From assembly GCF_900188375.1 (NCBI RefSeq), contig NZ_FZOO01000007.1, positions 1 through 64,000 of the forward strand: 64,000 nt of DNA, given 5' to 3'. The position numbers and the translations under genes are program-made. Every line of letters begins with the position of its first letter. The stretch's first letter is position 1. A model generated the notes under the pieces. That model was not told the DNA's origin. It did no database searches and saw only the letters and a list, made by a program, of their open reading frames with translations. Source of the stretch: Geodermatophilus pulveris (lineage in GTDB: Bacteria; Actinomycetota; Actinomycetes; Mycobacteriales; Geodermatophilaceae). Positions 681 through 11,955 of the stretch are shown here, piece after piece.

Positions 681-2723
681 GTGCCCGCACCACGCACGCC
701 GGCCCCCGCCCGGACCGCCGCCCGCGTCCCCGCAGCCCGCACCGCACCGGGCCGCGCGGCCGGCCGCCCCGCCGCTCCGCGTGCCACGGCTGTACGGACG
801 ACGGCCCGGACCTCACCCCGCACCGCCGCACCCCGCCCGGCGCTGACCGCCGAGGAGGCGCGCGCGCTGCGCGCCGCCCTGGCCGCGCGAGCCGCGACCG
901 CCGACGGCGGTGCCGCGGGCACCACCCGCCGCCCCTCCCCCACCGGCCGCCCCGCGGCGCGCCGCACGCCGGCCGCCCGGAGGCGCCGGCGCCGCGCGGC
1001 CCGGGCGGCCGCCCGCCGTGCCGCCCTGCGCCGCTGGCTGCCCGCCGCCGGCGGCCGCCGCTGGCGGGTGCGGCTGTCGCTGGCCGCCCTCGGTCTGGCG
1101 CTGCCGGTCCTCGCCGGCCTGGTGCCCCCCGGCGCGCAGCCGGCCGGGACGGTCACCGGACCCACCGATGCCACCGGCCTGGCCCTGGCGGCCCAGGGCA
1201 CCCTGCTCGACGCCGCGACCCGCTACCGCGGACTGCAGCAGGACCTCGCCGCCCGGGACGCCGAGCTGACGGCGGCGCGCACCGCCCAGCAGGTCGCCGA
1301 GCAGCAGCTCGCCGCCGCCCGCGCGACGGTCGGCACCGGGGCCGCCGCTCTGTACCGGTCGCCCGCCGAGGCACGCACCCCCGCGCTGGGCCTGGACCTG
1401 CGGGCCGCCTCGACCACCCCCGACGTCCTGCACCGGTCCGCGCTGGCCGAGCAGGTGGCGCGGGACCTCGCGGTCGACGTCGTCCGCGCCGAGCGGGCCG
1501 CGGCCGGCGTGGCGCGGGCCGCCCGGCGCGTGGCGGTCGCCGAGGCCGCCGCCGCGACCGTCGCCGAGCGGGCCGCTGCCGTCCTCGACGAGGTGCGCAC
1601 CGAGGTCGGCGGGCTGCGCACCGACGTGGCCGCCCAGCTGGCCGCGCTCGGCACCGGCCGGGCCGCGGCGGCCCAGCAGGAGACCAACCAGCAGGCGCTG
1701 CGCCGCTGGCAGGACCACCTCGGCGCGCTGGCGCTCGCCGGCATCGTGTCACCGCCCGCGGCCGCCCTGGCCGACCCGGCCCGGCTGCCGGCCGGCCTGT
1801 CCCCCGCGCTCGACGGCGCCGGGCAGCCGGTCCCCGGCATCGCCCTGGGCGTCGCCGGCAACCGCCCGGTCACCGTGCTGCCCGCGGAGACGGTGGCCGC
1901 GGTGAGCTCCGCGCTGGCCCAGCTCGGCAAGCCCTACGCCCCGGGCGGGACCGGCCCGGACACCTACGACTGCGGCGGGCTGGCGGCCACCTCGTGGCTG
2001 CTCGCCGGCCACGCGATCCCGGCCACGCCGGGCGACCAGTGGGCGCGCGGCGCCGCCGTCCCCCTGGCCCAGCTGCAGGTCGGCGACCTGGTCTTCACCG
2101 ACGGCGGCAGCGACGTGGGCCTCCACCTCGGCGAGGGGCAGGTGGTCGCCGCCTCGGCAGCGGGCTACCAGGTCGGCGTCCGGCCGCTCACCGGCGCGGC
2201 CGGCGCCGTGCGGGTCACCCTGCCCGCACCGGCGCAGGCCAACGCCGCGCTGCCGGCCGGCACCACCGGCCACGGGCCGTGCGGCGCGCCGCCCGCGCCG
2301 GCGGGCCCGGTCAGCCCCGCGTGGGGCGGCTGGTCCAACGGCGCCATCCCGGCGAGCGCGCTGTGCCCCGTCGCCCGGGGACACGCGCTGCGCTGCGACG
2401 CCGCCGCCGGCTACACGGCGATGGCCGACGCCTACCGGGCCGCGTTCGGCAGCCCGCTGTGCATCACCGACTCCTACCGCTCGCTGGCCGCGCAGGTCAC
2501 CGCGTTCCGGACGAAGCCGCAGCTGGCCGCGGTGCCGGGGACGTCGAACCACGGGTGGGCGCTGGCCGTCGACCTTTGCGGGGGGATCCAGACCGGCGGC
2601 ACCGCGCAGTGGGCCTGGATGGCGGCCAACGCGGGCCGCTTCGGGTTCGTGCAGCCGGACTGGGCCCGACCCGGCGGCGAGAAGCCCGAGCCCTGGCACT
2701 GGGAGTTCGGCCACCTCGCCTGA
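681..2723 (+). CDS. Membrane-anchored NlpC/P60 plus VanY-type (M15) peptidoglycan hydrolase, 680 aa
   Basis: Residues 1-129 are an Arg/Ala/Pro-rich cytoplasmic leader. A single hydrophobic segment follows at about 131-150, then an Ala-rich coiled coil at about 175-330. An NlpC/P60 domain (about 405-515) has its catalytic Cys431 in YDCGG and a candidate His482 in VGLHLG; these cut the D-Glu to meso-DAP bond. The C-terminal domain (about 565-680) is an M15 D-Ala-D-Ala carboxypeptidase, with SNHGWALAVD (zinc His624) and the second motif EPWHWEFG. Two enzyme classes in one secreted chain suggest peptide-stem trimming outside the membrane. Start is GTG 681 after AGGGGGAC. It ends in the convergent gap that carries repeat A1. 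Confidence 0.85.
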   Translation: MPAPRTPAPARTAARVPAARTAPGRAAGRPAAPRATAVRTTARTSPRTAAPRPALTAEEARALRAALAARAATADGGAAGTTRRPSPTGRPAARRTPAARRRRRRAARAAARRAALRRWLPAAGGRRWRVRLSLAALGLALPVLAGLVPPGAQPAGTVTGPTDATGLALAAQGTLLDAATRYRGLQQDLAARDAELTAARTAQQVAEQQLAAARATVGTGAAALYRSPAEARTPALGLDLRAASTTPDVLHRSALAEQVARDLAVDVVRAERAAAGVARAARRVAVAEAAAATVAERAAAVLDEVRTEVGGLRTDVAAQLAALGTGRAAAAQQETNQQALRRWQDHLGALALAGIVSPPAAALADPARLPAGLSPALDGAGQPVPGIALGVAGNRPVTVLPAETVAAVSSALAQLGKPYAPGGTGPDTYDCGGLAATSWLLAGHAIPATPGDQWARGAAVPLAQLQVGDLVFTDGGSDVGLHLGEGQVVAASAAGYQVGVRPLTGAAGAVRVTLPAPAQANAALPAGTTGHGPCGAPPAPAGPVSPAWGGWSNGAIPASALCPVARGHALRCDAAAGYTAMADAYRAAFGSPLCITDSYRSLAAQVTAFRTKPQLAAVPGTSNHGWALAVDLCGGIQTGGTAQWAWMAANAGRFGFVQPDWARPGGEKPEPWHWEFGHLA

Positions 2724-5214: not shown

Positions 5215-5679
5215 TCAGGCGGGGACGGACTGGGTGGGCCGGCGGGGCGCCGGGACGCCGAGGTCGTCGGCCGGGCCGGACGCCAGGCGCGCCACCAGGT
5301 CGGCGGCCGCGGCGCGCTCGGCCGGGCCCGGCTCCACCGTGTAGACCGGCATGTGGTCGTACAGCGAGGTGAACAGCGAGCTGACGAACGCGTAGGCGGC
5401 CTGCGCCTGCGGCGAGAAGCGGGCCACGGCGGTGCGCGGGCCGAGCTCGACGCCGACGGTCACCCGCACGACCCGCTCGTCCTTGCCCAGGCCGGTGAGC
5501 GTGAAGGAGACCTCCGGGTGCGCGCCGCCGAGCTCGGCCAGCGCCGCCAGGCAGCGCCGCGCCGAGCCGCGGCGCGGCCGCAGCTGCACGTGCACGACGA
5601 CGGTGTCGGAGTCCGTGGCGGGACCGACGGTCTCGGCGGCCTGGTTGCCGGACTCGGTGATAGCGGTGTGTTGCATCAT
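5215..5679 (-). CDS. Hypothetical protein, 154 aa
   Basis: Not recognised. Two adjacent ATG codons start it, after a clear AGGGGG. The first 25 residues are polar. Residues 26-95 alternate hydrophobic and charged residues (TVVVHVQLRPRRGSARR, VVRVTVGVELG), suggesting a beta-rich fold. Residues 96-120 are a helix with SSLFTSLYDHMP, and the tail is Ala/Pro-rich. There is no membrane segment or signal peptide. It is upstream of the divergent sigma-factor gene on the same strand with a 70-base gap, so it could be its first cistron. A small ligand-binding or regulatory protein is possible, but no family was recognised. Confidence 0.6.
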   Translation of the reverse strand: MMQHTAITESGNQAAETVGPATDSDTVVVHVQLRPRRGSARRCLAALAELGGAHPEVSFTLTGLGKDERVVRVTVGVELGPRTAVARFSPQAQAAYAFVSSLFTSLYDHMPVYTVEPGPAERAAAADLVARLASGPADDLGVPAPRRPTQSVPA

Positions 5680-5876
5680 GATCGCCCCCTGTTACGTGCT
5701 TGGGGCAACTCTGGCGCATCACCGACCGGGCGGCGGCCACAACTCTCGCTGTGCCATGCGCAACCTCAGGCCATCTCTTCGGCAGTTCTTGCCCGTGTCG
5801 ATGCCCGGGATCGCGCCGGCCGTGCAGTGTTCGGCGGAAGTGCACAAGGGGCCGGGACGGTTCCCGGCCAGTGTGC

Positions 5877-6212
5877 TCACCCGGCGGAGCCGCCCGCGGC
5901 GCGTCGGCGGCCGGGCGGGCTGATGGACGCCGGCGCGGCAGCGGCCGGCGGCGCCGGGTCGGCCGCGGGCGCCGGCTCGCCGGCCGGTGCGGGGGCGAAC
6001 GCCGCGAGCGCGCCCAGCGTGTCGGCGGTGACCTGCGCCGCGAGCAGGTTGGCCTCGGCGATCTGCCGGTAGACCTCCTCGCGGTGGATGGTCACCTCCC
6101 GGGGGGCGGTGAAGCCGAGCCGGACGGTGCCGCCGCGGACCTCGACGACGTGGACCTCGATGTCGTCGCCGATGCGGATGGTCTCGCCGACGTTGCGGGT
6201 GAGAGTGAGCAC
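5877..6212 (-). CDS. csrA: Translational regulator CsrA with long C-terminal tail, 111 aa
   Basis: Residues 1-55 are a complete CsrA: MLTLTRNVGETIRIGDDI, then VRLGFTAPREVTIHREEVY, with the RNA-binding Arg44 present. CsrA dimers bind GGA motifs in mRNA leaders and block ribosomes. CsrA is usually 60-75 residues; here residues 60-111 add an Ala/Pro-rich, probably disordered tail ending in RRR. The gene is last in the flgN-flgK-flgL-fliW-csrA set, downstream of its antagonist fliW. Its Shine-Dalgarno is ACGGAGGGG, which itself contains an ANGGA motif, so autoregulation is possible. The likely key target is the flagellin leader at 10761-10807. Confidence 0.93.
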   Translation of the reverse strand: MLTLTRNVGETIRIGDDIEVHVVEVRGGTVRLGFTAPREVTIHREEVYRQIAEANLLAAQVTADTLGALAAFAPAPAGEPAPAADPAPPAAAAPASISPPGRRRAAGGSAG

Positions 6213-6266
6213 GTGGACCCCTCCGTGGGTGTGGTGTGGCCGTCCATGGCAGGTGGGCGGGGAACG

Positions 6267-6287
6267 GGGACGGCGCGCGGCCGTCCC
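6267..6287 (-). other. Hairpin in the csrA leader
   Basis: GGGACGGC (6267-6274) and GCCGTCCC (6280-6287) pair around a 5-base loop, between fliW and csrA. It could end some of the fliW transcript or fold in the csrA leader. Confidence 0.45.
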
Positions 6288-6294
6288 GAGGGGG

Positions 6295-6322
6295 TTATCG
6301 GCGCAGGGGACGCCGGATCGGA
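6295..6322 (-). promoter_or_regulatory. Possible sigma-28 promoter for csrA
   Basis: On the minus strand the -10 element GCCGATAA (6295-6302) is identical to the Escherichia coli sigma-28 consensus, and its last bases are the fliW stop codon. Twelve bases upstream is TCCGATCC (6315-6322), a partial match to the TCAAGTCC of the fliC promoter. It would give csrA a leader of about 75 bases. The weak -35 keeps confidence low. Confidence 0.4.
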
Positions 6323-6699
6323 TGGGCGCCGTCGGGGAGGACGACCTGGGTGGCCCGCCAGGTGACCGGGTCGACCACCAGCGGGGCCCGCAGGTTCGCC
6401 GTGGCCGCGGCCGGGCCCTCCGCCGGCACCGTCACCAGGCAGTACAGCCGCGCCTGCGCGGGGTCCTCGAGGCCCAGGCCGGCGCACACCGGCGCGGGCA
6501 GCCGCGGGGCGTAGTCCGGGAAGTAGACCCCCGGGTCGACGGCGAGGAAGCGCGGGCCGTCCGGCGCCATCGACTGCAGCCAGAACAGCCGCCCGTCGCC
6601 GTCCGCGGTGACCAGCACGTAGTCGCGGTGGCCGGGGAACCCGGGCAGCGGCTCGGTCATCGACAGCAGGGGCAGGGTCGCCACGGCGGAGAGCGTCAT
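6295..6699 (-). CDS. fliW: Flagellar assembly factor FliW, 134 aa
   Basis: FliW features are PLPGFPGHRDYVLV near residue 18, a central FLAVDPGVYFPDYAPRL and a late segment NLRAPLVVDPVTWRATQVVL, which matches the NLLAPIVIN-type motif of the family. FliW binds CsrA and frees it from flagellin mRNA, and free flagellin binds FliW in turn; this three-way switch is known from Bacillus and Campylobacter. Length is within the usual 130-150 residues. The start overlaps the stop of flgL (ATGA), and csrA follows on the same strand, the arrangement seen in many FliW-carrying bacteria. Confidence 0.92.
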   Translation of the reverse strand: MTLSAVATLPLLSMTEPLPGFPGHRDYVLVTADGDGRLFWLQSMAPDGPRFLAVDPGVYFPDYAPRLPAPVCAGLGLEDPAQARLYCLVTVPAEGPAAATANLRAPLVVDPVTWRATQVVLPDGAHPIRRPLRR

Positions 6700-7598
6700 C
6701 GCAGGAAGTCCACGAGCGTCGGCTGGATGACGTTGGCCGTGGCCTGCAGCGCGGCCTGGTAGCCCACCTGCCGCTGGTTGAGGTCCATGATCGTCTTCGC
6801 CAGGTCGATGTCCTCGACACCGGCGAGCTGGGAGCGCAGCGCCAGCTGCTGGTCGGCGTTGACCTGGCCGGCCGCCTCCAGGCGGGCCGAGCGGGCACCG
6901 ACCGCGGTGCCGGCACCGAGCAGGCGGTCCAGCGCGGCGTCCAGGCCGGCGAGGTCGGCGGAGAGCTGGTCGGGGTCGGCGACCACGTCGTCGGCGATCT
7001 TGGCGACCAGGGCGAACAGGTCCTCGCCGTCCGGGTCCCCGAACGCCTCGGGACCGGTGACGTCGACCCGCGCGACCTCGTCCCGCGAGATCCGCCGGGT
7101 GGTCTCCACGACCTCACCACCGGCACCCCGGGCGCCGACGTAGTCGCCGGTCGCGGCGTCGTACGCCGTGGCGCCGGACGTCGGGCCGCCGAACAGCGGC
7201 CGGCCGTTGATGGACGAGTTGGCCATCGCCAGGAGGCTCTGCCGGAGGGCGCCGACCTCGATGCTGATCGCCTGCCGGGAGGTGGTGGACATGCTCCCGC
7301 TGTTGAGGCCCTGCACGGTGAGGTCGCGGACCCGGCGCACCTGGCCGGCCATGGTGGCCAGCGCGGTGTCGGCCGCGTCGAGCCGGCTCCGCCCGTCGGT
7401 GATGTTGCGGGCGTACTGCTGCGCGGCACTGCGGTCCTGGCGCACCTGCATCGCGCGGTTGGTGTCCGTCGGGGAGTCCGACGGCGCGCTGATCTGCTTG
7501 CCGGAGGTGAGCTGCTGCTGCAGCTTCGCGACGGCCGCGAGGTTGCCGTTGAGCCCGAGCAGCGCCGTCTGCGTCACGGCGCGGTGGGTGATCCGCAT
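6696..7598 (-). CDS. flgL: Hook-filament junction protein FlgL (HAP3), 300 aa
   Basis: The N-terminus MRITHRAVTQTALLGLNGNL and the flagellin-like helix at about 30-70 (SGKQISAPSDSPTDTNRAM) are typical of FlgL. The C-terminus (about 255-300) returns the coiled-coil half with AKTIMDLNQRQVGYQAALQATANVIQPTLVDFLR. Such paired terminal helices build the junction between hook and filament. The middle (about 140-200) is the variable exposed domain. It is exported by the flagellar type III system, and accordingly has no Sec signal. It starts 4 bases after flgK and overlaps fliW by 4 bases, so the genes form one operon. Confidence 0.93.
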   Translation of the reverse strand: MRITHRAVTQTALLGLNGNLAAVAKLQQQLTSGKQISAPSDSPTDTNRAMQVRQDRSAAQQYARNITDGRSRLDAADTALATMAGQVRRVRDLTVQGLNSGSMSTTSRQAISIEVGALRQSLLAMANSSINGRPLFGGPTSGATAYDAATGDYVGARGAGGEVVETTRRISRDEVARVDVTGPEAFGDPDGEDLFALVAKIADDVVADPDQLSADLAGLDAALDRLLGAGTAVGARSARLEAAGQVNADQQLALRSQLAGVEDIDLAKTIMDLNQRQVGYQAALQATANVIQPTLVDFLR

Positions 7599-7602
7599 CA
7601 GG

Positions 7603-9048
7603 TCACCGCCCCACGAGGCCGGTGCGGGTGATCAGCGTGTCGATCGCCTCGTCGATCGCGGTCACCATGCGGGCGGCCGCGCCGTAGGCGTGCTGGAAGG
7701 ACAGCATCGTCGTCATCTCCTCGTCCAGGTTCACACCCGACACGGACTCGCGGGCGGCGTCCACCTGGGTGGAGATCACCGTCTGCACCTCCAGGTCGCG
7801 CGAGGCCACGGCGGACTCCACGCCGAGCGCGACGACCAGCTGGCGGTACCCCGCGTCCACGCCGTCCGGCGCCAGGCTGAGCCGGAAGAAGGCGTCGGCG
7901 TTGTCGCCGTCGGCGGAGGGCTGCCCGCCCACCGCGGCCGGCGACGAGGCCGCGACGGCCAGCAGCGCGGGGTCGCTGACGCGCACCGTGATGTTGCCGG
8001 CGTGCACCGTCGCGGGGTCGACGGGCACGGTGCCCGACCCGTCATCGAGCAGCGGCTGGTCCGCGCCGGACGCCCCGGTGGCGTCGTAGCCCGCGGCCTG
8101 GACGGCGTTGAGCCGACCGACCAGGTCACGGGCCATCTGGTCGAGCCGACCGCGGTAGCCGGGGATGGTGTCCGTCAGGGCGGCCAGCTGCCCGCCGGCG
8201 GTGCCGCCGATCGCGATGGTCGTGCCGCCGGGGTCGGTGCGGACCCGCGGGTCGTCCCCGGTGCCCACCCCGTCGGGGGTGTCCGCGCCGGCGAGCTGCA
8301 GGCCCAGCGTTGCCCCGCCGGAGACCAGGGTGCTCCCGCCGACCAGGACGTCGACCATGCCATCGGCCGCCGGCCGGACCGTCGCACCGACCCGCTCGGC
8401 CAGCGACACCACCAGCAGGTCGCGGCGGTCGGCGAGCTCGTTGACCGGCAGGCCGGCCCGGCTGGCGGCCCCGATGGCCGTGTTGAGCTCGCCGATCGAC
8501 GTCGCGGTGGCGTTGACGTCGGCCACGAGCGCCTGCAGGTCGTCCCGGGTCTGGGTCCACTGCTGGTCCAGCGTCGCCCGGGCGGTGTGCAGGCCGCCGG
8601 CCAGGATGTCCAGCCGCTCCAGCACCAGCCCGCGGGCCGCCGGCTCGGTGGGGTTGTTGGCCACCTCGCTGAAGCCGGTCCACACGTCGGCGAGCATGCT
8701 CTGCAGGCCGGTGTCACCGGGCTCGCGCAGGGCGGCCTCCACCCCGCCCAGCGCCTCGGCGGCGACGGTCAACTCGGCGGTCCGGGAGATCTCCGTGTGC
8801 GCCCGCTGCTCCAGGAAGACGTCCCGGATGCGGGTGACCCGGCCGGCGTCCACGCCCCCGCCCACGGGGCTGGACACCGAGTGCAGCGCCGGGACGGCGG
8901 TCCCGCCCACCGCCTGCAGGTCCACCCGCTGGCGCGAGTAGCCCTCGGTGTTGACGTTGGCGACGTTCTGGCCGGTGAGGTCCAGGCCCCGCTGGGCCGC
9001 CCAGAGCGCCGTCCGGGCCGTGTTGAGCCCGCCGAAGGTGGAGGTCAC
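7603..9048 (-). CDS. flgK: Hook-associated protein FlgK (HAP1), 481 aa
   Basis: The N-terminus from GTG 9048 reads TSTFGGLNTARTALWAAQ, then GQNVANVNTEGYSRQRVDLQ, the flagellar rod/hook signature shared by FlgK, FlgE and the rod proteins. The C-terminus has VSGVNLDEEMTTMLSFQHAY and ends with EAIDTLITRTGLVGR, the FlgK C-terminal motif. It forms the first hook-filament adaptor ring and is secreted by the type III apparatus. The frame is open farther upstream, but GTG 9048 overlaps the flgN stop (GTGA), which fixes the start. At 481 residues it is in the middle of the family range. A middle domain (about 200-380) is variable. Confidence 0.94.
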   Translation of the reverse strand: MTSTFGGLNTARTALWAAQRGLDLTGQNVANVNTEGYSRQRVDLQAVGGTAVPALHSVSSPVGGGVDAGRVTRIRDVFLEQRAHTEISRTAELTVAAEALGGVEAALREPGDTGLQSMLADVWTGFSEVANNPTEPAARGLVLERLDILAGGLHTARATLDQQWTQTRDDLQALVADVNATATSIGELNTAIGAASRAGLPVNELADRRDLLVVSLAERVGATVRPAADGMVDVLVGGSTLVSGGATLGLQLAGADTPDGVGTGDDPRVRTDPGGTTIAIGGTAGGQLAALTDTIPGYRGRLDQMARDLVGRLNAVQAAGYDATGASGADQPLLDDGSGTVPVDPATVHAGNITVRVSDPALLAVAASSPAAVGGQPSADGDNADAFFRLSLAPDGVDAGYRQLVVALGVESAVASRDLEVQTVISTQVDAARESVSGVNLDEEMTTMLSFQHAYGAAARMVTAIDEAIDTLITRTGLVGR

Positions 9049-9539
9049 AGGGCGCCGTCCAGCGTCACGGCGCGGTGCGCGCCCTGGGTGCTGCGGCCGC
9101 TGGCCCCGTAGGTGCCGGCCGAGGGCGCCTGGGCCGACAGCAGCGCGTCGCCGATGGCGGTCAGGCCACCCTCGATCAGCCCGCGGTTGGCGTCGGAGAG
9201 CCCGCGCAGTTCCGTCACGAGCACCAACAGCGCCTCGTGGTGCTTGGCGTACAGGTCGTCCCACGGGGCCGGCGCGGCCTCCGCGAGCGTGCGCAGGGAC
9301 GGGTTGCCCCCGACGCCCAGCCGGGTGGCGAGCACCTCGGTGACCGCCGCGCGTTCCACCTCGAGGCTGCGCAGCTGGTCGAGCACGACCTCGATCTCGT
9401 GCGCGATCCGCGCCAGCCAGCGGGTCTTGCCCGTGACGATCAGGTACTGCTTCTCCTCTGCCTTGAACAGCAGCAGGTCCAGCAGCTCCTGCTCGCGCCA
9501 CAGCAACGTCGACAGGTGCTGGTGGTCCACGGCCCTCAC
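9045..9539 (-). CDS. flgN: FlgN-family export chaperone, 164 aa
   Basis: The protein is almost wholly helical, starting with HQHLSTLLWREQELLDLLLFKAEEKQYLIV, whose pattern is that of the FlgN family, a coiled-coil chaperone that guards FlgK and FlgL before export. Position supports this: it is directly upstream of flgK and flgL and overlaps flgK by 4 bases. Length is near the usual 140-160. A tail of about 30 residues (about 133-164) is low-complexity. It is the first gene of the minus-strand flagellar operon and has a sigma-28-like promoter about 55 bases upstream. Confidence 0.8.
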   Translation of the reverse strand: MRAVDHQHLSTLLWREQELLDLLLFKAEEKQYLIVTGKTRWLARIAHEIEVVLDQLRSLEVERAAVTEVLATRLGVGGNPSLRTLAEAAPAPWDDLYAKHHEALLVLVTELRGLSDANRGLIEGGLTAIGDALLSAQAPSAGTYGASGRSTQGAHRAVTLDGAL

Positions 9540-9596
9540 CGTCCTCCCCTGTTCCCCGCGGCGGACGTCGGTGCTGCCGGCGGGTTCTCACGGGGA

Positions 9597-9623
9597 GCTT
9601 CGGCAGTCCGCAGGAGCCCTTGA
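9597..9623 (-). promoter_or_regulatory. Sigma-28-like promoter for flgN-flgK-flgL-fliW-csrA
   Basis: On the minus strand TCAAGGGC (-35, 9616-9623) and GCCGAAGC (-10, 9597-9604) are 11 bases apart. The bases before the -35, TCGGC, match those of the flbD promoter. The expected start of transcription is near 9590, giving a leader of about 50 bases. Compare 10719, 25099 and 27738. Confidence 0.68.
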
Positions 9624-9701
9624 GCCGAGGGCGCCACTGCGGGCGGCCCGCGGCCGGACCCGGCGGTGCCGTCCGGCCCGCACGCTGCCGAGAAGGAGCA
9701 C

Positions 9702-10685
9702 GTGAGCCCATCGCGTGCCTCGGTGACCGTGCGGTCCGGTGTCCCTGCCCCGCGCTCCGCTCCTCCCGCACAGGGCGGCGCGGACGGCGCGCCCCGGGGG
9801 CAGGCGTCGCGCGACGTCGACGGCCTGGTGACCGACCACCTGCCGCTGGCCACCTTCGCCGTCAACGCGGTGGCCGCCCGCATCTCGCTGCCCTCACACG
9901 TCAGCCGGGAGGACCTGCTGTCCTGCGCGCGGGTGGCGCTGGTCGAGGTCGCGCGGCGGTTCGACCCGTCGGCGGGGGCGTCGTTCGCGACCTACGCCCT
10001 GCCCCGGCTGCAGGGCGCCGTCCTGGACGAGCTGCGCTCCGGCGACTGGGCCAGCCGGTCGGTGCGGGCGGCGGCCCGGCGCTCGGACGCGGCCGCCGAC
10101 GCCCTCGCCATCCAGCTCGGGCGGCCGCCGACGCGGGGTGAGCTCGCCGCCAGCCTCGGCATGGCCACCAGCGACCTGGACTCCCTGCAGGTCGACGTCC
10201 ACCGCGCCGTCATGGTGAGCATCGACGCCGAGACCGGTCCGGACGGCTCCTCCCTCGACCTGCCCGACACCGGGGAGTCGCCGGAGCGGGCGCTGCTGCG
10301 CACCGAGCGGTCCCGGTACCTGCACGAGGCGATCCGCCAGCTGCCCGACCGGCTCGACGAGGTCGTGGAGCGCAACTTCTTCGGGGGCGAGTCGCTGACC
10401 GACATCGCCGCCGACCTCGGCGTCACGCTGTCCCGGGTGTCCCAGATGCGCGCCCGGGCCCTGACGCTGCTGCACGCGGCGATGAGCGAGGTGTGGGAGG
10501 GCCGGGCGGTGCCGGCCGACGGCGGGGTGCGGGCGCGCAACCAGCAGCGCTCCTACGTCGACCGCGTGGCCGGGCGCAACGCGCCGCCGGCGGCGGCCCC
10601 CGCGCTGCCCCGCGCCGTGCCGGCCCAGCACCCCCACTCGGCGTGGGCGGCGGCCCGGCGGTACGGCGTCTCCCGACCCGCCTGA
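9702..10685 (+). CDS. fliA: RNA polymerase sigma-28-type factor (FliA/WhiG class), 327 aa
   Basis: Region 2 (about 40-110) holds LPSHVSREDLLSCARVALVEVARRFD, then FATYALPRLQGAVLDELRSGDW, the form seen in sigma-28. Region 3 (about 115-165) has RPPTRGELAASLGMATSDL, and region 4 (about 215-265) has LTDIAADLGVTLSRVSQMRARAL, a clean helix-turn-helix. The first 35 residues and the last 60 are disordered extensions. GTG 9702 follows AAGGAGCAC and is chosen over an upstream in-frame start at 9666. It is the first plus-strand flagellar gene, directly before flagellin, and probably reads the TCAAG/GCCGA promoters in this window. No anti-sigma FlgM was found. Confidence 0.9.
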   Translation: MSPSRASVTVRSGVPAPRSAPPAQGGADGAPRGQASRDVDGLVTDHLPLATFAVNAVAARISLPSHVSREDLLSCARVALVEVARRFDPSAGASFATYALPRLQGAVLDELRSGDWASRSVRAAARRSDAAADALAIQLGRPPTRGELAASLGMATSDLDSLQVDVHRAVMVSIDAETGPDGSSLDLPDTGESPERALLRTERSRYLHEAIRQLPDRLDEVVERNFFGGESLTDIAADLGVTLSRVSQMRARALTLLHAAMSEVWEGRAVPADGGVRARNQQRSYVDRVAGRNAPPAAAPALPRAVPAQHPHSAWAAARRYGVSRPA

Positions 10686-10718
10686 GTGAGGAATCGTCCA
10701 GAAGCGGTCCCGTTCGCC

Positions 10719-10746
10719 TCAAGTCCCCGGCAGGACCGGCCGAACC
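10719..10746 (+). promoter_or_regulatory. Sigma-28-like promoter for flagellin
   Basis: TCAAGTCC (10719-10726) and GCCGAACC (10739-10746) are 12 bases apart. The preceding bases CCCGTTCGCC are nearly the same as those before the flbD promoter at 25099. Transcription would start near 10753, giving a leader of about 63 bases. Confidence 0.72.
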
Positions 10747-10760
10747 TCTCCACGCACCGC

Positions 10761-10780
10761 CCGCAGCACGGATGCAGCGG
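10761..10780 (+). promoter_or_regulatory. Predicted CsrA-binding hairpin BS1 in the flagellin leader
   Basis: CCGCAGC and GCAGCGG pair (one A-A mismatch) around the loop ACGGAT, showing ANGGA in a six-base loop, the preferred CsrA ligand. A second ACGGA (10803-10807) lies 35 bases downstream on the Shine-Dalgarno GGAGGA. Confidence 0.6.
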
Positions 10781-10802
10781 GAATCCCCCAAGTCCCGATT
10801 CC

Positions 10803-10810
10803 ACGGAGGA
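10803..10810 (+). promoter_or_regulatory. Shine-Dalgarno of flagellin overlapping a CsrA motif (BS2)
   Basis: ACGGAGGA combines a CsrA ANGGA core with the Shine-Dalgarno GGAGGA, 5 bases before ATG 10816. Binding of CsrA here would block ribosome entry. Confidence 0.6.
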
Positions 10811-10815
10811 ACACC

Positions 10816-11955
10816 ATGGGTCTCAGCGTCAACACCAACAGCGCGGCGATGAACGCCTACCGCAACCTGTCGGTGACCAACGACCAGATGAGCAAGTCGC
10901 TCGAGCGGCTCTCCTCCGGTTTCCGCATCAACCGTGCCGCCGACGACGCCGCGGGCCTGGCCATCTCCGAGGGCCTGCGCTCGCAGATCGGCGGCATGAA
11001 GCAGGCCGTCCGCAACACCCAGGACGGCATCAGCGTCGTCCAGGTCGCCGAGGGCGCCCTGGGCACGACCACCTCGATCCTGCAGCGCATGCGCGACCTG
11101 GGCGTCCAGGCGGGCAACGACTCCAACAACACCGAGGCCCGCGCGGCCATCGCCACCGAGGTCGAGGGCCTGCAGGCCGAGCTGGCCCGCATCGCCGAGT
11201 CCACCAACTTCAACGGCACCAAGCTGCTGAACGGCGACACCACGGTCCTGAACTTCCAGGTGGGTGCCAACGGTGACGCGGCCAGCCAGATCTCGGTGGA
11301 CCTGACCGCGGCCAACGTCGAGGCGATCGCCGACGCGCTCGGCGTCAGCGGCGGCAGCCGGACGGCGTTCACGGTCGCCACGCCCACCGCCGTCACCGGG
11401 ACGTACACCTTCAGCGACGGCCAGGGCGCCTCGGCCGCCGTCGACCTGGGCGCCGTCAACGACCACACCACGGTCGACTCGGTCGCGCTGAAGCTGAACC
11501 AGGACAGCAGCTTCGCGGCCAGCTTCCGCGCGACGGTGAACTCGGACAACGAGCTGGTCGTCAGCGCCAAGGACGGGGCGAGCACCGCGGTGACCGTGGC
11601 CGCCGGCGCCGGTGCCGCGGGCATCAACACCACCGGCACGGCGGTCACCGGCGGCATCAGCTTCGACACCGCCGCGGACGCCCAGAACGCCGTCGACGCC
11701 ATCGACACCCAGCTCGCGCAGGTCTCGGAGGCCCGGGCCCAGCTCGGTGCCTACCAGAACCGGTTCGAGTACACGATCAACAACCTGAACGTGGCGATCG
11801 AGAACACGACGGCGTCGGAGTCGCGGATCCGCGACACCGACATGGCCCAGGAGATGACCAACTTCACCCGGACCCAGATCCTGACCCAGGCCGGCACCTC
11901 GATGCTGGCCCAGGCCAACCAGTCCTCGCAGGGCATCCTGCGGCTGCTGGGCTGA
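10816..11955 (+). CDS. fliC: Flagellin, 379 aa
   Basis: Residues 1-140 are the conserved D0/D1 half: MGLSVNTNSAAMNAYRNLS, then LERLSSGFRINRAADDAAGL and ESTNFNGTKLLNG. Residues 290-379 are the returning half, with AQLGAYQNRFEYTINNLN and ending GTSMLAQANQSSQGILRLLG. The centre (about 150-290), Thr/Ala/Val-rich, is a small exposed domain. The protein is secreted by the flagellar type III system and polymerises into the filament. It is a single copy here, with its own sigma-28-like promoter, a leader with two CsrA motifs, and a strong hairpin downstream at 11983-12018, so it is a monocistronic unit. Length is typical for actinobacteria. Confidence 0.97.
   Translation: MGLSVNTNSAAMNAYRNLSVTNDQMSKSLERLSSGFRINRAADDAAGLAISEGLRSQIGGMKQAVRNTQDGISVVQVAEGALGTTTSILQRMRDLGVQAGNDSNNTEARAAIATEVEGLQAELARIAESTNFNGTKLLNGDTTVLNFQVGANGDAASQISVDLTAANVEAIADALGVSGGSRTAFTVATPTAVTGTYTFSDGQGASAAVDLGAVNDHTTVDSVALKLNQDSSFAASFRATVNSDNELVVSAKDGASTAVTVAAGAGAAGINTTGTAVTGGISFDTAADAQNAVDAIDTQLAQVSEARAQLGAYQNRFEYTINNLNVAIENTTASESRIRDTDMAQEMTNFTRTQILTQAGTSMLAQANQSSQGILRLLG

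Follow-up and report, generated by a model that had tools for sequence, protein, structure and literature searches.

The window analysed here, meaning the whole stretch of 64,000 nucleotides, corresponds to positions 1-64000 of one contig in the 4.38 Mb genome of Geodermatophilus pulveris. On its plus strand, the flagellin gene fliC stands between a sigma factor gene, which would be of the FliA type judging from its position, and fliD. The minus strand carries flgN, flgK, flgL, fliW and csrA, and from about 14.5 kb onward there are more flagellar genes (Table 1). The encoded FliW is related in sequence to 2aj7 and to the FliW chains of 5dmb.

Table 1. Genes and predicted regulatory elements of the csrA-fliW-fliC region (window coordinates)
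Feature	Position	Strand	Basis
csrA, 111 aa, GTG start	5877..6212	-	PF02599 3.4e-24; R44 and N55 in translation
csrA leader, candidate site 2, CCC-[ACGGAG]-GGG, overlapping Shine-Dalgarno GGAGGGG	6218..6229	-	sequence; family comparison
csrA leader, candidate site 1, GCC-[ATGGAC]-GGC	6239..6250	-	sequence; family comparison
GCCGATAA, sigma-28 -10-like, overlapping fliW stop	6295..6302	-	GCCGA count in leaders
fliW, 134 aa	6295..6699	-	PF02623 1.1e-29
flgL, 5' of fliW	6696..7598	-	PF00669 1.8e-19
Sigma factor gene directly 5' of fliC	9666..10685	+	Sigma70 regions 2, 3, 4
Sigma-28-like promoter TCAAG-N15-GCCGAAC	10719..10745	+	motif count in leaders
fliC leader hairpin CCCGC-A-GC-[ACGGAT]-GC-A-GCGGG	10760..10781	+	sequence; local fold; comparison with relatives
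fliC Shine-Dalgarno ACGGAGG (10803-10809), potential mini-hairpin TTCC-[ACGGA]-GGAA	10799..10811	+	sequence
fliC, flagellin, 379 aa	10816..11955	+	PF00669 7.6e-46, PF00700 1.5e-28

The fliC leader contains ACGGA twice. The first copy lies in the hexaloop ACGGAT (10768-10773), flanked by GC/GC, then by an A.A mismatch and then by CCCGC/GCGGG; the second is inside the Shine-Dalgarno ACGGAGG (10803-10809), shortly before the ATG at 10816, and 35 nt separate the two. Both copies and their spacing had been described in a sequence-only reading of this DNA, which had also placed csrA and fliW about 4 kb away; we find them on the opposite strand, 4.6 and 4.1 kb from the leader. The hairpin it had drawn at 10761-10780 is present and extends in fact from 10760 to 10781. 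We propose the loop as candidate CsrA site 1. Together with its closing pair, it matches the CANGGANG rule for CsrA loops (PMC4894983) as well as the ANGGAN loop (PMC7652899), as far as the available parts of both papers describe them.

A folding program gave the isolated hairpin -12.8 kcal/mol, its shuffles averaging -7.33 (z -2.26), and additionally paired the first A of the ACGGAT loop with the last U to leave a CGGA loop. The whole fliC leader was no stabler than its shuffles in two folds (z +1.00 and z -0.15). Two of the five folds, those of loci L124 and L050, rested on guessed coordinates and were left out. Upstream of the hairpin, the motif TCAR-N14..17-SCGWW, which we take to be a sigma-28-type promoter, was found in 84 of 159 flagellin leaders against 1.9 in shuffles; fliC transcription would then start near 10752. 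Scanning for sigma-70 promoters gave none at fliC. An Rfam search of window positions 5800-11000 at E <= 1 returned no match for the fliC or csrA leader regions. Its sole match, P10 at 6617-6665 (E 0.64), lies inside fliW under the gathering score and was rejected.

The flagellin leaders that we compared came from three sources: the genus (flagellin in 26 of 26 genomes), an order sample (59 of 200) and a class sample (45 of 394), the samples of 200 and 394 genomes being tool-drawn. After removal of six of the 165 matches (four FlgL-like by E-value, two duplicates), 159 leaders from 121 genomes were left; five of them were kept although their gene starts are misplaced, as a non-start codon stands at that position. 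A strict hairpin with an ANGGAN hexaloop is present in 135 of the 159 leaders. When hairpins with A-N-xxx-N hexaloops were counted for all 64 centre triplets, GGA came first with these 135, GGC followed with 13 and no other triplet exceeded 4. Among the 153 distinct leaders, 130 have the strict hairpin, against a mean of 1.3 and a maximum of 8 after base shuffling. With a looser stem rule, the ANGGAN hairpin is found in 142 of the 159 leaders and in 25 of 26 families. The sequence-only reading had tied its case to the survival of the ACGGA motifs in relatives that keep csrA, fliW and fliC. The hairpin does survive, in 117 of the 121 flagellin-bearing genomes under the looser rule, but the exact ACGGA at the Shine-Dalgarno does not, as ACGGAGG occurs in only 23 of the 142 hairpin-bearing leaders. 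In a named genome set that overlaps the other samples, 78 of 80 leaders have the hairpin, the misses being Mobiluncus mulieris and one Acidimicrobiales MAG.

The same reading had called for a search for covariation among the leaders of relatives, and such a search reveals stem compensation. With the loop picked blind to pairing, 139 of the 159 leaders qualified, representing 99 distinct sequences. Stem positions 1-7 are paired in 74-95 of these 99, where shuffle means are 37-67, and each position beats the highest of 300 shuffles. The excess holds with one sequence per genus (43 genera). Sliding the register cuts the pairing at most positions, a slide of -1 still giving 65-72 of 99 at three of them. 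Thus the stems vary with compensation, from GC/GC to CCC/GGG, GGCC/GGCC and GGCCC/GGGCC, around a constant A-Y-GGA loop. Altogether, this leader comparison strongly supports a predicted control of flagellin translation by CsrA.

The hairpin is missing from 17 of the 159 leaders under the looser rule: five paralogues with a GGC or GGT loop, seven other extra copies and five leaders of four genomes (G048, G293, G463 and G563). By eye, the flagellin leader of G048 has a five-base AGGAA loop. G463 and G563, both larger than 7 Mb, have neither a csrA match nor a leader hairpin; they are the only two complete controls that lack both, and their flagellin-like genes are distant. These genes (L140 in G463, L153 in G563) show about 40% identity across the N-terminal 140 residues. 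Extra flagellins of the Modestobacter group (L034, L035, L039, L086 and L088) have a strong hairpin with the loop ACGGCT or ACGGTT, as if these copies had escaped from CsrA. L034, L035 and L039 are on the minus strand, with flagellin starts at 5291, 5309 and 5240 of the reverse strand.

We also considered the fliC Shine-Dalgarno as candidate CsrA site 2, for which the evidence is weak, since GGA is to be expected in any good Shine-Dalgarno. In the window, an A stands two bases 5' of GGAGG in 27 of the 271 GGAGG of both strands. In the relatives, where the first GGA no more than 22 nt from the start was taken as Shine-Dalgarno, a rule that does not always pick a genuine one, ANGGA is found in 93 of the 142 hairpin-bearing leaders, a count inseparable from plain Shine-Dalgarno sequence. 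The forms seen in these 142 leaders are AAGGAGG (59), CAGGAGG (29), ACGGAGG (the 23 mentioned above), TGGGAGG (7) and others, of which CAGGAGG and TGGGAGG do not match ANGGA. It is possible, if rather unlikely, that CsrA binds the upstream hairpin only, that the Shine-Dalgarno is an ordinary one and that repression would proceed through tethered CsrA or mRNA decay. Such single-site binding would suit the 49 of 142 leaders without ANGGA at the Shine-Dalgarno and the most frequent form, AAGGAGG, which is also a near-perfect complement of the anti-Shine-Dalgarno. Against it, the Shine-Dalgarno GGA can form part of a mini-hairpin of four pairs in 41 of the 55 hairpin-bearing leaders of Geodermatophilaceae (outside the family, 12 of 87 leaders have one of at least four pairs), and in the parts available of two papers a second site is reported to be bound in C. 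jejuni and B. subtilis (PMC4894983, PMC7652899). The distance between the hairpin GGA and the Shine-Dalgarno GGA ranges from 22 to 72 nt, with a median of 33, over the 142 leaders; one CsrA dimer is reported to bridge 10-63 nt (PMC7652899).

The csrA gene has a leader of its own with two CsrA-type sites, which the sequence-only reading had not mentioned; they are conserved within the family and uncommon elsewhere. Indeed, CCCAYGGAGGGG is found in 60 of 62 csrA leaders of Geodermatophilaceae against 1 of 75 outside. The strict upstream hexaloop is present in 41 of the 62 and in three of the 75, namely L116 (f27), L124 (f43) and L264 (f23), the last having both sites in the Geodermatophilaceae form. 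Counting any hairpin with at least three G-C pairs and GGA in a loop of 4-7, we found 58 of 59 distinct leaders in the family (shuffle mean 10.2, maximum 18) and 10 of 73 outside (shuffle mean 7.1). In the triplet control GGA came top with 58, the triplets ACG and CGG, which overlap GGA, reaching 49. In Klenkia (g5), none of nine leaders has the strict hexaloop; their stems are built differently and still present GGA in the loop. The hairpins 5' of csrA are short, and the csrA leader of the window folds worse than its shuffles (z +1.77). Taken together, the two predicted sites make it probable that csrA represses its own translation.

Further upstream, GCCGA occurs 50-130 nt 5' of csrA in 30 of 31 FliW-positive and 31 of 31 FliW-negative distinct family leaders, against 5.2 and 5.8 in shuffles; a -35-like match for this element was found in only one of 62 csrA leaders. 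In three loci of the Modestobacter group (L034, L035 and L048), a long G+C-rich inverted repeat, seen by eye, is located between the GCCGA element and the CsrA-type sites. In f41 and f2, at csrA loci such as L138, L129 and L069, a -10-like sequence, also seen by eye, lies a few bases 5' of the start, and such closeness suggests a leaderless csrA mRNA in these two families.

The presence of csrA follows that of flagellin closely. Of the 59 flagellin-bearing genomes in the order sample, 57 have csrA; the completeness of the remaining two is 93% and 57%. FliW accompanies csrA in 45 of the 57, and those that lack it, 12 in number, all belong to g3, g4 and g5. In the class sample, csrA was found in 41 of 45 flagellin-bearing genomes, all 41 with FliW; the four without csrA comprise G463, G563 and two genomes of 80% and 63% completeness. 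Conversely, a flagellin match was missing from 9 of 66 csrA genomes in the order sample, and from 15 of 56 in the class sample. In six genomes with csrA and neither FliW nor a flagellin match (L251 and L252 of f31.g159, L253-L256 of f52.g125), CsrA residue 55 is G, R or P.

Two CsrA residues were followed across the loci. R44, described as an RNA-binding residue in the part available of PMC7652899, is found at index 44 in 99 of 100 FliW-positive loci (an insertion displaces it in the remaining one) and in 37 of 37 FliW-negative loci. According to the text available of PMC6529632, CsrA of B. subtilis needs N55 to bind FliW and the N55D variant is deficient. N55 is present in 98 of the 100 FliW-positive loci; the other two have an index-shifting insertion and a diverged second csrA copy. 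A second, diverged csrA lies next to the normal one at L257 in G480.

FliW itself is not present throughout the family. With a profile built from 17 sequences and a cut-off of E below 1e-6, we detected FliW in 70 of the 112 Geodermatophilaceae genomes searched, including 26 of 26 Geodermatophilus genomes. It was undetectable in all 33 genomes of g3, Modestobacter (g4) and Klenkia (g5), where the best E was 0.52; 21 of the 33 were placed in g4 by subtraction and csrA search, and PF02623 agrees on the absence for the 12 that belong to the order sample. The nine further FliW-less genomes belong to g190-g192, five of them being less than 85% complete. In the 10 FliW-less loci read, out of 12, flgL ends 133-144 nt 5' of csrA and no fliW match lies between. 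Nonetheless, 31 of the 33 genomes have csrA (the 12 of the order sample and 19 of the other 21), the two without it being 70% and 72% complete, and the flagellin hairpin is present in 12 of the 12 FliW-less genomes whose leader was fetched. In the 31 genomes, R44 is retained and residue 55 is N (14), R (10) or Q (7). The idea that N55 is lost along with FliW, which 11 changed residues out of 12 had at first suggested, was dropped with the 14 that keep N.

A five-protein tree, weak in its branches at the base of the family, places the FliW-less genera close to that base and requires two changes of the FliW label. Loss of FliW, in one or more events, appears likelier than gain because the outgroups have FliW. 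That FliW goes undetected in 33 genomes, spread over three genera of Geodermatophilaceae, indicates that the FliW arm is not general. The homeostatic FliW-CsrA-flagellin switch that the sequence-only reading had expected in an actinobacterium thus gains support for Geodermatophilus, in which every genome searched has FliW and N55 is kept. These occurrence data make a FliW-relieved switch likely in Geodermatophilus, though not as a rule for the family.

The FliW-less genera raise the question of an antagonist: either another one would be needed there, or the flagellin mRNA itself may serve. If CsrA were antagonised mainly by RNA, be it the flagellin leader or an unseen small RNA, FliW would be dispensable. 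The 33 genomes with undetectable FliW, 31 of them with csrA, would be in line with this, as would the titration of CsrA by C. jejuni flaA mRNA described in the available text of PMC4894983. We nevertheless regard it as quite improbable here, given that FliW occurs in all 26 Geodermatophilus genomes and that N55 is kept in FliW-positive loci and drifts in FliW-negative genomes, a pattern that speaks for a functional FliW contact in Geodermatophilus. For Modestobacter, Klenkia and g3 alone, we put forward, speculatively and as an unlikely case, that CsrA control of flagellin may have outlived FliW: csrA would repress itself through its two leader sites, the abundantly made flagellin mRNA would act as a CsrA sink, and the flagellin and csrA leaders would compete for a single protein with no protein antagonist. 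Finally, it is very improbable that the hairpin is kept for mRNA 5'-end stability or early sigma-28 transcription with CsrA incidental, a role that would agree with its position near the presumed 5' end (median distance from the -10-like element to the loop 22 nt, n = 79) and with the strong stems of the five GGC or GGT paralogues, but not with stems that vary by compensation where the loop does not, with the preference for GGA over the next triplet, or with the same kind of loop in the csrA leader of the family.

We therefore favour, with a probability of about 85%, the reading in which CsrA uses the fliC leader as an operator with two sites, FliW relieves the block and csrA probably represses itself; CsrA binding, repression, FliW relief and autorepression are what we infer from the comparisons above. 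One pocket of a CsrA dimer would hold the ACGGAT loop and the other the Shine-Dalgarno ACGGA 35 nt downstream, and the bridging dimer would keep ribosomes off and block flagellin translation. Unexported flagellin would hold FliW, and flagellin export would free it; free FliW would then bind the CsrA tail around N55, so that the mRNA would be released. The block by CsrA and its relief by FliW are modelled on Bacillus and Campylobacter. CsrA would also limit its own synthesis through the csrA leader sites, and this self-repression could set the CsrA level where the coupling of fliW and csrA differs from that of Bacillus.

The predicted switch resembles the Hag-FliW-CsrA system of B. subtilis in having two candidate CsrA sites in the flagellin leader, one of them on the Shine-Dalgarno, adjacent csrA and fliW genes, and a CsrA with R44 and N55. 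The likeness to hag is one of two-site layout. The predicted switch differs in that csrA has its own two-site leader and that related genera have no FliW. In B. subtilis, the csrA Shine-Dalgarno is described as lying inside fliW, with translational coupling (PMC6529632, text available in part). Such coupling was not found here, where 82 nt separate the fliW stop from the csrA start and csrA has a separate Shine-Dalgarno; it is the Bacillus form, and not a feature shown for every member of the switch. The flaA leader of C. jejuni is also similar: the part of the paper available to us describes two hairpins with ANGGA loops, the second over the ribosome-binding site, compensatory changes and a CANGGANG loop (PMC4894983). 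The GGA spacing is 21 nt in flaA and 35 nt in fliC here. The word stem 'autoregul' is absent from that paper (PMC4894983).

The probable autorepression has a counterpart in a system that works in other respects with different antagonists, that of E. coli. Yakhnin reportedly described in 2011 that E. coli CsrA represses its own translation; the likeness proposed here lies in CsrA acting on its own translation. The antagonists of CsrA in E. coli are small RNAs, in place of FliW.

The csrA and fliC leaders may not be the only targets. Two patterns, each combining the hairpin core, a Shine-Dalgarno and a start, were run on the 26 Geodermatophilus genomes and gave 58 and 91 matches, where their reversed versions gave 28 and 27. 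Fourteen of the 58 fall in the csrA leader, and with the second pattern a fliC-type match was found in 26 of 26 genomes, that of G021 at a place on the contig without a flagellin match. The excess left after removal of csrA, fliC and the extra flagellins makes further CsrA targets possible; by eye, the remaining matches recur in at most five of the 26 genomes. A CsrA-site-like pattern is also seen 5' of a small protein gene in four of the 26 (L178; G010, G012 and G015), and the gene that precedes it resembles by eye the NlpC/P60-VanY gene of the window (681-2723).

CsrA control of an actinobacterial flagellin was proposed in 2008 for Kineococcus radiotolerans from a Shine-Dalgarno-overlapping site alone (PMC2587704); the available text of that paper mentions neither FliW nor BS1, and no upstream hairpin and no leader comparison across relatives were found in it. 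Zere et al. named Actinobacteria, in the part available, as one of the groups in which FliW may counteract CsrA (PMC4682653), and a survey of actinobacterial flagella counts CsrA and FliW among the proteins it searched for, each word appearing once in the text at hand (PMC10746217). Among the papers found, what was earlier in print thus amounts to a general suggestion (PMC4682653) and, for a single species, a Shine-Dalgarno match (PMC2587704). No title or abstract opening among the matches listed concerned the actinobacterial leader hairpin, the csrA-leader sites of the family or the absence of FliW; subscription journals lay mostly outside this search, which is no proof of novelty.

Our results would extend the Bacillus and Campylobacter switch across a bacterial class, and the flagellin leader hairpin appears as a widely conserved RNA element that has no Rfam match in the window. 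In Modestobacter, Klenkia and g3, where FliW is undetectable and residue 55 drifts while the RNA sites are kept, the family offers a natural experiment on CsrA control without FliW, a question that is directly testable in cultivable soil bacteria.
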